A stretch of DNA of 34,294 nucleotides, from assembly GCA_946412245.1 (NCBI GenBank), contig CAMKGM010000034.1:1-34294 (forward strand), given 5' to 3'. Numbering within the stretch: the stretch's first letter is position 1; every line of letters starts with the position of its first letter. The translations under genes were made by a program, and so were the position numbers. This document shows positions 861 to 10,368 of the stretch, in pieces. This DNA is from an uncultured Bacteroidales bacterium (GTDB lineage: Bacteria; Bacteroidota; Bacteroidia; Bacteroidales; Muribaculaceae). Below the pieces are notes generated by a model. That model did no database searches, was not told the DNA's origin, and was given only the letters and a program-made list of their open reading frames with translations.

Positions 861-1001
861 TACGAAGCGTTATGCTCGACTTGCAAAAGGAAACGTGAGA
901 AACTTCCAAGAAAGAACTGCAAGAACGGTGTACGGTTCGCGCTATATAGCGTGGGCTGGTTACTCCTTCTCAGTTCAGGTAATTCTCACGACCTCCTTTT
1001 G
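861..1001 (+). ncRNA. structured leader RNA, copy 1, upstream of the membrane-protein/J-protein operon
   Basis: The plus strand folds into nested helices visible by eye. CAAAAGG (884-890) pairs with CCTTTTG (995-1001). CGTGAGAA (894-901) pairs with TTCTCACG (983-990). GAACTG (914-919) pairs with CAGTTC (971-976). A perfect hairpin CGCTATATAGCG sits at 940-951. Between the arms is GTGTACGGTTCGCG (928-941). CGAAGCG (863-869) and CTCGA (875-879) lie just upstream. The same words occur in the same order in a second element at 28101-28197. No ORF of note runs through it. Two further hairpins, 1003-1030 (AGAAGTGG with CCAC...TTCT) and 1042-1063 (GCCCT/AGGGC), lead to the start codon at 1082, so a cis-regulatory role is likely. 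It may belong to a known Bacteroidota class such as the DUF805 motif; I recall that class only loosely and cannot confirm it. Confidence 0.7.
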
Positions 1002-1081
1002 AAGAAGTGGTATATCAGTGCCACGCTTCTAACGTTTAATAGCCCTTTTGGTCGCTGGAGGGCAAAATAAAAGAGACGACT

Positions 1082-1803: not shown

Positions 1804-2451
1804 ATGAGCATTAAATTTTTTATTGGATTAGTGGTTTCTTCCATGATATTCACATCATGTGGTCAGAAGAAAGAAGTAACTTATAGTAAACATTCAAGCG
1901 CTGATAATACATATAGTGTTGAGCTTCCAACGAGCGCAACACCGGGAAGATGTGTTGGTGATTTATTGAGTTTTGAGGATGCTAATTCTCATCTAATAAT
2001 CACCATACAGCACATTAACGAAGGAAGCATCGAAGAATATATCCGTAACAAGGATGTAACAAACGACACCTTTTCTTATGATCTCTTCCAGTCTTCTGAT
2101 ACAACATCCTTCTATAAAATCACAAGAGGAAACAATATGTGGTCGGCTTATGACCTTTATATGCTCAAATGTTTGGATGGAAAGAACTATCTTTTCAAGG
2201 TTAGTTCTGATGTGCTTGGCCAATCGGAGATGATAGAGATGATAAAGCATATCTACACTTCGATGAAACTAAATGGAATGGGAGAAGGTGCTGATGCAGA
2301 TGCCGCAACAGAAGAAGCAGAAGCTGTTTCTCTTGAAAAGACGTATTCGACAAGATTCTATTCTGTAAAGTACCCTAAGGGATGGAAGATTACAGAGCAT
2401 TTAGATGAAATGACGGAAGTATATATCGGTTGTCAACCAGAGAATTTATAA
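1804..2451 (+). CDS. lipoprotein with a repeated domain, truncated at the 3' end
   Basis: The ATG at 1804 is preferred over the upstream in-frame ATGs because it directly begins a lipoprotein signal peptide: MSIKFFIGLVVSSMIFTSC, with the lipobox Cys at residue 19. The mature part starts with a ~115-residue domain (from 'VTYSKHSSADNTYSVELP' to 'IYTSMKLNG'), then an acidic Ala/Glu linker. A second copy of the same domain then begins ('KTYSTRFYSVKYPKGWKI') but ends after about 36 residues at a TAA. The lost half of the repeat shows the gene is broken near 2445, where the sequence changes character. The intact form would be a periplasmic or outer-membrane lipoprotein of unknown function, probably working with the two genes upstream. 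Confidence 0.65.
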   Translation: MSIKFFIGLVVSSMIFTSCGQKKEVTYSKHSSADNTYSVELPTSATPGRCVGDLLSFEDANSHLIITIQHINEGSIEEYIRNKDVTNDTFSYDLFQSSDTTSFYKITRGNNMWSAYDLYMLKCLDGKNYLFKVSSDVLGQSEMIEMIKHIYTSMKLNGMGEGADADAATEEAEAVSLEKTYSTRFYSVKYPKGWKITEHLDEMTEVYIGCQPENL

Positions 2452-2600
2452 GGAATTCCGTTCTGGATGGTATAATACAGGTTGCCAGCCACGAAATCAT
2501 AGGTTACGATACCACTCTGGCACTTGATATTACTTGCTCCAAAGGCGGCAACCCACTTGCTGTCGGCCTTCAGCGCATTCATCCCTCGATAGGTGGCTGT
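2433..2600 (-). pseudogene. C-terminal fragment of a surface/secreted protein, reversed relative to its neighbours
   Basis: On the minus strand a reading frame with natural-looking protein composition ends at a TGA at 2435-2433: it contains 'ALKADSKWVAAFGASNI' and 'YDFVAGNLYYTI' and ends '...IPYKFSG'. The last part recalls the extracellular beta-rich proteins of Bacteroidales, but I cannot name the family. It has no credible start: upstream, the frame runs into sequence that reads better on the plus strand. It is wedged between the broken lipoprotein and the headless dockerin protein, so it is best seen as debris of a rearrangement or an assembly join. Weak call. Confidence 0.3.
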
Positions 2601-2609
2601 GGAAACTCT

Positions 2610-3677
2610 CTTGGAAGTGCCGGAGCTGCCGATGTGGTGGGCAACTATACCTGGACCTATCAAACCTCAACAGCCTAAGGCGATACCGCCACCTTCACCC
2701 CCGGTTATGGCCAAGTTAGCTTGACCCAGATTACCGGCACTCAAGACTCTGTCATATTCAATGGCTTTAACCTCAACAATATGAACCTTAAGCTCCATGC
2801 CGTGGTCAATACGGAGCAAGGCTATGTGCTCATCCCCGACCAAATTGCCTACAACCACCCCACCTACGGCAACATCAAGGCCGTGGCGCTCTACAACTAC
2901 AACGGCTCATGGTACTATGAGGAATCTATCGGCATGAACATCAATGTTGACGGTAGTCTCACCATACCCGACTATGTGTTCACTATCATCACATCGGGTG
3001 CCTATAGCGGCCTTATGTATGGTAACTACTACAGCAGCAACAACTTCAGTACCATGACCGATGGCAACGGCATCATGATTGTGACCTTCAATAGCACCCT
3101 GTCGAGCGACTACACCACACAGACCTATCCCGTGAAACTCACGCAACAGGGCAATGTGGTAGCAGTTGAGAACTTCCTGAACATGGGCTATACCGTCAAC
3201 ATCAACCTCGCCGCCGACCGCACCATCACCATCGACAAGCAACTGGTGGAACAAGGCGATGCCGAGTATGGCGACTTCTACACCTATGCCGCCGACTTCA
3301 CCAACACCGGTGCCACCGACGTGAGCGAGCTCATTGCCGGCGACGTGATTTCAGGCATTGGTACCGACACTGAACTCTCATGGGGCAAATTCATTGCCAT
3401 GTCGACTACCGGTTACTGGACAGGCGCTATGGAGACGGGACGCATCGTTCGCACCGACAACCTCACGTTCATCTACGACCAAACTCCCGCAGTGAAAATT
3501 GGCGATGTGAACAATGACGGTGACATCAATGTGCTCGACGTCACCGCGCTCATCAACTACATCCTGGGCAAGAACCCAAGCCCGTTCAATCTGGCAGCCG
3601 CCGATGTGAATGGCGAAGACGGTATCAATGTTATGGATGTGACCGCGCTTATCAATCTGGTGCTGAGCAACGAATAA
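2610..3677 (+). pseudogene. secreted dockerin-type protein, N-terminus lost and in-frame stop
   Basis: The plus-strand frame reads '...VVGNYTWTYQTSTA', a TAA stop at 2676-2678, then continues in the same frame 'GDTATFTPGYGQVSLTQITG' to the TAA at 3677. The product has no signal peptide or proper start; the first real ATG after the stop is in the middle of a domain (about 2781). The body is a beta-rich extracellular domain of some 250 residues. The last ~60 residues are a type I dockerin with two calcium-loop repeats, 'GDVNNDGDINVLDVTALINY' and 'DVNGEDGINVMDVTALINL'. In non-cellulosomal Bacteroidales such C-terminal dockerins occur on many secreted proteins and their partners are often unknown. 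An expressed product from 2721 or later is possible but would not be exported. A strong terminator follows. Confidence 0.6.
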
Positions 3678-8078: not shown

Positions 8079-8087
8079 ATTTAAGAG

Positions 8088-8159
8088 TACTTCCACTGGG
8101 AATCGAACCCAGATTTTAGGTTTAGGAAACCCACGTTCTATCCGTTGAACTATGGAAGC
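8088..8159 (-). tRNA. tRNA-Arg (anticodon CCT)
   Basis: Read on the minus strand from 8159: the acceptor arm GCTTCCA pairs with TGGAAGT, followed by discriminator A. A D-arm GTTC...GAAC, an anticodon arm TGGGT/ACCTA with loop TTCCTAA (anticodon CCT, reading AGG), and a T-arm TGGGT-TCGATTC-CCAG type complete the cloverleaf. The CCA end is not encoded. A strong promoter lies just upstream. Confidence 0.92.
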
Positions 8160-10265: not shown

Positions 10266-10283
10266 CAGCCTGAAATATTAACA

Positions 10284-10335
10284 CGGTGGAAAAATTTGGC
10301 TGCTTGCAACCACTTGAAAAAATGCTAAAACTGCG
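10284..10335 (+). promoter_or_regulatory. SAM-II riboswitch aptamer upstream of metK
   Basis: The element fits the SAM-II pseudoknot plan. P1 is GGTGG (10285-10289) with CCACT (10310-10314). The loop ends in the conserved CTTGCAA just before the 3' arm of P1. A linker TTGAAAAAAT then leads to GCTAAAA (10324-10330). The pseudoknot helix forms between TTTGGC (10295-10300) and GCTAAA (10324-10329), with one G-U pair. It sits directly behind the promoter and upstream of S-adenosylmethionine synthetase, the enzyme that makes the ligand, so feedback control by SAM is the natural reading. Confidence 0.82.
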
Positions 10336-10368
10336 AAGACTTCCCTCAACCTTTCACAGCACAATTAG

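Follow-up and report, generated by a model that had tools for sequence, protein, structure and literature searches.

Bacteroidota dominate the human gut, and we know of few long mRNA leaders in this phylum with an assigned role. Riboswitches of the c-di-GMP (GEMM) type occur in many copies per genome, also in tandem, with diverse genes that often encode surface proteins. In Bacteroides thetaiotaomicron, about 2% of the long 5′ untranslated regions (UTRs) have riboswitches assigned to them (PMC7366714). FopS, a multi-copy small RNA (sRNA) family of Bacteroidaceae with standard promoters, is described as combining a single-stranded 5′ stretch with a terminator hairpin and acting in trans on susC-like mRNAs (PMC11697453). 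Here we analyze a leader RNA in a 34,294-nt stretch of DNA (contig CAMKGM010000034.1, referred to below as the window) from an uncultured Bacteroidales bacterium of the Muribaculaceae, whose genome comprises 3.17 Mb in 138 contigs. The original prediction, made from the letters alone, had read positions 861–1,063 as a cis-regulatory RNA that controls an envelope-related operon, perhaps a member of the DUF805 motif. Comparison with homologues shows a conserved structure, alternative pairings of its 3′ strand, a near-constant cis position in Bacteroidales and use in many copies per genome. We put at about even the chance that the leader belongs to a class of cis-acting regulatory RNAs that is new and spread across the Bacteroidota, and that probably acts as a switch of translation responding to a signal.

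Conserved structure and competing pairings of the leader

The leader spans ~260 nt between its promoter and the first open reading frame (ORF), with all elements on the + strand. The promoter (784–815) was read in the sequence as TTG at 784–786 and TAACTTTG (TAnnTTTG) at 808–815, following the Bacteroidota promoter consensus. Right after the presumed transcription start, the predicted fold contains a 5′ hairpin, P0 (825–839, GTGGC/GCCAT), and a GACAT linker (848–852, with 851–852 conserved at 86–91% in 100 homologues) leads into a ~180-nt domain built of helices P1 to P5. The 5′ strand of P1 (864–876) forms P1a (864–870/1,023–1,029) and P1b (871–876/1,009–1,014). Within it lie P2 (884–890/995–1,001), P3 (894–901/983–990), P4 (914–919/971–976) and the P5 hairpin (932–959; helix 938–944/949–955), which consists of a 5′ strand X (932–944) and a 3′ strand Y (949–959). 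The 3′ strands of P3 and P2 occupy 983–1,001, where the intervening ACC (991–993) is conserved at 87, 99, and 99%; the unpaired positions 892–893, 904, and 992–993 are conserved at 99–100% among the 100 homologues. The 3′ strand of P1 (1,009–1,029) holds a bulge T (CAGTGCC, 1,016–1,022) and a strand that we call Z (1,016–1,026). A final hairpin, P6 (1,042–1,063), pairs GCCCT (1,042–1,046) with AGGGC (1,059–1,063), and its loop (1,050–1,057, GGTCGCTG) forms a pseudoknot with the P1 bulge at 1,016–1,022 (one mismatch in the window; duplex −10.7 kcal/mol).

This fold is more ordered than expected by chance, as had been proposed. The minimum free energy (MFE) of 861–1,081 is −76.9 kcal/mol, compared to −56.2 (sd 4.1) for dinucleotide shuffles (z = −5.04), and the longer stretch 819–1,081 gave z = −4.89; in both cases, none of 200 shuffles was as stable. 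The three nested helices of the original prediction, P2, P3, and P4, are all present in the MFE fold exactly where they had been placed.

A 39-pair structure was then compared across 100 aligned members. Standard pairs filled 92.3% of the cells (74.6% when shuffled), and changes on both sides of a pair were found in 662 cells, compared to 200.5 (sd 11.0) for shuffled and 55–137 for slid partners; 35 of the 39 pairs showed such a change. The covariation analysis of homologous leaders that had been suggested as a check yielded 11 pairs at E < 1e-4 against a null model that preserves the tree: six in P2 (885–890 with 995–1,000, E from 2e-13, the best value, to 3e-5) and five in P3 (E from 3e-10 to 3e-7). 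These E-values are rough, since they come from a script of our own that is modeled on R-scape and fits an exponential tail.

P4 varies in length and was therefore tested without an alignment, by comparing the partners within each sequence to partners taken from other sequences. In this swapped-partner test, P4 reached z = −20.4 among 54 representatives, and none of 200 swaps matched it. Pairing in P5, whose tip is the palindromic hairpin 940–951 that had been pointed out, is supported both by swapped-partner tests and by pair changes in the alignment. The 5′ strand of P1 is paired in 86–97% of cells in the 100 members, with swapped-partner z of about −6 to −8. The arms of P0 in homologues outperformed all swapped arms (0 of 500 swaps; control 408 of 500), as did those of P6 (0 of 500; control 50 of 500), in agreement with the hairpin predicted at 1,042–1,063.

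The pseudoknot also recurs in homologues. For the P1 bulge (CAGUNCC) and the downstream loop (GGNACUG), the swapped-partner test gave z = −7.8, and the best duplex is at or below −8.5 kcal/mol in 131 of 181 copies. Among 28 distant members, 16 reach this value and none of 300 swaps equaled the average. Compensated versions include AAACCC/GGGUUU, GGUUCC/GGAACC, UGGUUC/GGGCCA, and CAGUACC/GGUACUG.

The 3′ side of the domain appears to have more than one partner. In 100 sequences with 500 swaps, Y matched X (z = −11.7; 0 of 500) and also matched Z (z = −8.8), while the nonsense control X–Z gave z = 0.1; in the 23 distant members alone, X–Y and Y–Z gave z = −5.7 and −4.7. Z also pairs with the 5′ end to close P1a (z = −7.8 for the whole set), and its alternative partners are the 5′ end, Y, and the P6 loop. 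Mutually exclusive pairings of the kind expected of a riboswitch are supported for X–Y and Y–Z and not for the control, and this competition is consistent with the logic of a switch, from which we infer that switching may occur. A further hairpin had been predicted at 1,003–1,030. It does fold in the window, but its conservation found no swapped-partner support (58 of 200; 46 of 500, z = −1.3), and we rejected it as a conserved element; for its 3′ strand, pairing with the 5′ end (P1a), with the P6 loop, and with Y is the better explanation.

Distribution, placement and downstream genes

A DNA search of the window's own genome recovered two further partial copies (74% and 88% identity), and relatives gave longer ones. 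A first covariance model, R1, built from seven copies and applied at E ≤ 0.01, detected the RNA nine times in the window's genome. Within the genus, it had matches in 80 of 101 genomes, and in a set of 198 genomes drawn from the order it had matches in 55. A second model, R2, was built from 53 matches (52 sources given; representatives L091 and L111 left out) and applied at E ≤ 1e-4. Among 296 genomes sampled from the phylum, it matched 28; 25 of these belong to the same class but another order, and one lies outside the class. All five named genomes were positive with 6 to 15 matches each; with weaker matches included, Bacteroides gallinarum has 7, Phocaeicola sartorii 7, and Butyricimonas synergistica 15. 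All six genomes of one further genus were also positive, with 3 to 20 matches. A pattern scan of named genomes returned at least 119 stretches, 80 of which were listed. All but one of those listed carry titles of Bacteroidales or Bacteroidia groups (among the matches listed, Bacteroides, Phocaeicola, Parabacteroides, Alistipes, Butyricimonas, Prevotella, and others); the remaining one comes from an uncultured 'Firmicutes' metagenome-assembled genome.

Matches on the opposite strand, which serve as natural noise, scored at most 29.9 bits, and aligned members at least 44 bits; seven opposite-strand matches (22.9–29.9 bits) of 108 were dropped. Copies were taken from the matches listed in the genus and order scans and from the 80 listed of the at least 119 pattern-scan stretches. 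The loci are mostly best-scoring matches rather than a random sample, and 54 representatives (<80% identity) stand for 181 copies. A later alignment used 98 sources and left out the distant loci L253, L256, L265, L266, L268, and L271. Longer and weaker variants (about 49–80 bits), possibly a subfamily, were seen at 487–695 of L173 and as ~205–212-nt copies in G593. No plasmid match was obtained by blastn. A copy on the Bacteriophage sp. scaffold MT836071.1 was considered as a sign of phage origin and rejected, since this unannotated scaffold carries nearby ORFs that look bacterial by eye; the one pattern match on a viral contig (L025) falls within a coding gene and was put down to chance.

The copies hold a near-constant place relative to promoters and start codons. 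In 155 of 179 copies, TAnnTTTG occurs 25–75 nt upstream of the domain, compared to 1 of 168 for a control stretch, which substantiates the promoter proposed at 784–815. An ORF of at least 50 aa starts with ATG within 10–130 nt in 168 of 181 copies, in 103 of them 45–59 nt past the domain. For ORFs of at least 100 aa on the same strand, starting with ATG 25–90 nt downstream, the count is 149 of 179, compared to 15 of 163 for the other side and 35 of 169 for an offset control. The distance from the P6 loop pairing to the start codon has a median of 22 nt (117 copies), and the final 15 bases ahead of the start codon average 74% A/T. Compensatory changes, together with a position in the 5′ UTR, on the same strand and at a near-constant place in the Bacteroidales set, argue for a cis-regulatory leader. 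This part of the original prediction is well supported at the sequence level by the covarying structure, the upstream promoter and the fixed orientation.

Some loci carry additional elements. Four tandem arrangements were inspected. In L279 and L280, two copies lie 53 and 35 nt apart, respectively, with no promoter seen between, and in L277 and L278 the two copies are ~170 nt apart with TAnnTTTG ahead of the second. The latter two, from Butyricimonas synergistica, form two-copy units of ~560 nt in which the first copy has diverged, and these precede unrelated exported proteins. A second short conserved stretch like GTTGCGCCCGACACG lies between P6 and the start codon in L069, L105, L107, and L167, and partly also in L126, L146, and L204; it is found where the spacing is longer, and in L069 it had no Rfam match.

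Control of envelope genes holds as a tendency and not as a rule. Signal-peptide-like starts were found in 110 of 161 distinct first genes, compared to 142 of the 544 further ORFs at these loci; both the signal-peptide rule and the choice of first genes come from simple scripts of our own, and some choices are doubtful. Pfam assigned 74 families among 129 first genes, including BspA-type leucine-rich repeats (13), Big_2 (5), BACON (3), lipocalin-like (3), and PorV (2). Single cases include SPFH, an N-6 methylase (HsdM), and WG repeats; DnaJ, HsdM, and further genes are exceptions to the envelope tendency.

Closely related leaders often precede unrelated genes. Among pairs of leaders that are at least 85% identical, 149 of 213 precede first genes without blastp similarity (E ≤ 0.01); these pairs are not independent of one another, and some loci entered twice from a single genome (identical copies such as L060 and L166). 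Seven pairs were compared base by base. In L057/L064 and L145/L167, leaders that are 97–98% identical precede unrelated genes, and identity drops around the promoter and soon after Z. L057 and L061, from two genomes of one genus, have similar leaders, are identical over the 130 nt compared upstream and have a different gene behind the leader, as if genes had been exchanged at the leader. Some upstream similarity is kept in L057/L177 and L155/L185, the genes of the latter pair being related, and some similarity in the P6 region is seen in L134/L156 and L092/L027. The best reading of the clear pairs, though not of every pair, is an exchange of promoter plus leader.

In the window, the leader precedes three genes on the + strand: a 71-aa membrane protein (1,082–1,297; no family above cut-off), a 159-aa DnaJ-domain protein (1,310–1,789; PF00226, 81.2 bits), and a 215-aa protein that is lipoprotein-like by eye (1,804–2,451; no Pfam match). 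The third ORF ends at 2,451 and is followed by a dockerin-bearing ORF (2,721–3,677) whose own start is not clear; the junction near 2,450 (region 2,430–3,677) may be a broken gene or an assembly join. With Rfam 15, only two matches in the whole window exceed gathering scores, namely a tRNA-Arg (CCT) at 8,087–8,159 on the − strand and a SAM-II riboswitch (RF01726, 59.4 bits) of a long-loop variant at 10,280–10,338 on the + strand.

Candidate mechanisms

In the translational switch that we favor, a housekeeping-type promoter would give a transcript carrying P0, then the P1–P5 domain, then P6, with the P6 loop pinned to the P1 bulge usually ~20 nt before the start codon. Strand Z would take one of three exclusive partners, the 5′ end (P1a), the P6 loop, or Y. 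A signal, either a ligand or a protein at the conserved P2–P3 junction and the P5 region, would set this choice. The choice would in turn decide whether P6 and the P1 domain dock beside the stretch where the ribosome lands, and thereby whether translation starts. Translation as the output and the sensing of a signal are, like the switching itself, what we infer from the compared sequences.

Several observations weigh against this model. The start codon lies outside P6. The pseudoknot between the bulge and the P6 loop and the pairs of P6 itself are below significance in the alignment-based test, the P6 loop has a weak partner (above −6 kcal/mol) in 18 of 181 copies, and P1a falls short of significance when the 23 distant members are taken by themselves (66 of 500 swaps). 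In an earlier covariation run, the non-canonical pair 898–987 passed E < 0.05 beside eight canonical ones. The core of Y–Z, GCGUGG/CCACGC, is nearly invariant, and support for this pairing therefore rests on its extensions and on a few variants such as L254 (GGGUGUUCC/GGAACACCC). The 129 first genes with their 74 Pfam families share no pathway, and gene context points to no ligand or protein partner. Finally, 14 of the 28 distant loci lack an ORF of at least 50 aa with its start 10–160 nt downstream. A TonB-receptor-like ORF lies further downstream in 11 of these 14, and none was found in the other three. Overall, 12 of the 28 distant loci have a common same-strand ORF further downstream; that of L252 contains TonB-receptor Plug and CarboxypepD_reg domains, and the other 11 were assigned by blastp similarity.

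The exclusive partners of Z could also belong to a transcription attenuator. In such a device, Z and a U-run would terminate transcription, the partner of Z would choose read-through and the P6 loop would lock the read-through form. Competing partners of a 3′ strand are usual in attenuators, and a T-rich stretch (eight positions with at least 6 T) follows Z in 123 of 209 copies, being present in 12 of 18 copies with a weak P6 partner compared to 65 of 131 with a strong one. However, 86 of the 209 copies, that of the window included, lack the T-rich stretch, the would-be terminator stem is the local hairpin that gave no swapped-partner signal, and a simple terminator scan of the leader found none; we consider attenuation rather unlikely. 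Unlikely as well is a constitutive landing and stabilizing element that senses nothing, with a stable 5′ structure protecting the mRNA and an A/T-rich unstructured stretch offered to ribosomes that do not use a Shine-Dalgarno sequence. Very diverse downstream genes would suit such an element, as would the A/T content of the last 15 bases before the start codon (74% on average) and the near-constant distance from P6 to the start (median 22 nt), close to the 23 nt of the commonest 5′ UTR in B. thetaiotaomicron (PMC7366714). The conserved unpaired positions and the exclusive pairings exceed, however, what a passive clamp would need.

Two further explanations would detach the element from the genes behind it. 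A mobile sRNA gene acting in trans and standing ahead of genes by chance is hard to reconcile with the fixed orientation and start-codon spacing in the Bacteroidales set and with a pseudoknot partner that lies downstream in the same transcript, and we judge it very improbable; for the distant genus g156, the idea of a free-standing sRNA was rejected because of the common same-strand downstream ORF in 12 of 28 loci. A transposable DNA repeat resembling a miniature inverted-repeat transposable element could account for multiple copies, for P1a strands that amount to terminal inverted repeats and for near-identical copies beside unrelated genes. Yet direct repeats at the P1 ends show no excess (3 of 181 copies compared to 2.7 expected), the promoter and P0, located beyond the repeats, accompany the leader in several pairs, and the inner helices covary. 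We rejected this explanation, which we find scarcely credible, for its lack of target-site duplications at the P1 ends.

The translational switch can be extended to a phylum-wide, riboswitch-like RNA through which one global signal (e.g., a second messenger or an envelope-stress cue) would set the translation of a large, species-specific set of surface proteins by three-way strand exchange, and which would spread as a promoter-plus-leader cassette. We regard this broader proposal as possible, if on balance doubtful; were it true, any gene captured behind the cassette would join the regulon. A ~180-nt RNA that is present in 80 of 101 genomes of a genus, multi-copy in cultured species and unmatched in Rfam 15 would be a sign of an unrecognized layer of surface-protein control, and it suggests a cassette-like exchange of promoter and leader between unrelated genes. 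It also provides a defined experimental handle, with a helix to break, a known gene set, and a signal to find.

Comparison with known RNAs

The leader corresponds to no RNA family in the library searched. With Rfam 15, region 700–1,150 gave six matches up to E = 10; all were far below gathering scores, no Bacteroidota family was among them, and the domain in 39 homologous loci matched no Rfam family (19 loci searched to E = 1, 20 to E = 0.1). Membership in DUF805 RNA, offered tentatively in the original prediction, was rejected for both DUF805 and DUF805b, as neither matched the domain in the window or in the 39 loci. The suggestion was a near miss, since a DUF805b RNA (RF02914, clan CL00115; 41.7 bits) lies at 1,717–1,752 of L077 between the leader and the start codon, 33 nt past the domain. 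Further DUF805b matches follow copies by ~30 nt, judged by coordinates, in G251:C5, G251:C2, and G141:C1, the last two below the cut-off; the other 29 of 33 DUF805b places adjoin no copy among the matches listed. DUF805b is likewise a cis-regulatory motif of Bacteroidota near start codons, but it is 35 nt long with a single 4-bp hairpin, whereas the leader domain, at ~180 nt, shows no match to any part of it. DUF805b is thus a neighbor module and another RNA than the leader domain.

6S-Flavo RNA (RF01685) falls in a comparable size range and also occurs in Bacteroidota; identity with 6S RNA was rejected, as 6S-Flavo matches lie elsewhere, below the cut-off, in six of nine genomes and none was found in the window's genome. 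The Flavo-1, Bacteroidales-1, and Bacteroides-1 motifs, listed with Rfam accessions in PMC2864571, are also structured RNAs of Bacteroidota, and the Rfam library gave no match of theirs to the leader or to the 39 loci. In the parts of PMC8040213, PMC9723704, PMC7366714, PMC10994844, PMC11697453, and PMC2864571 available to us, supplements aside, we found no description of this RNA, and a search of the available part of PMC8632094 for Bacteroidota names found none. Two of these studies report thousands of structured RNA candidates from the human microbiome, listed in supplements (PMC8040213), and 64 structured 5′ regions in Flavobacterium psychrophilum, some of them without Rfam hits (PMC9723704); both sets may hold unnamed fragments or members of the leader RNA.

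FopS and the leader are alike in being multi-copy and in having standard promoters. The leader is long and folded from near its 5′ end, which sets it apart from FopS as described (PMC11697453), a comparison of build made with no separate run of a FopS model. In outline, the leader resembles GEMM riboswitches. Unlike these, the leader matches no Rfam model; like them, it occurs in multiple copies, with diverse genes that often encode surface proteins, and also as tandem copies.
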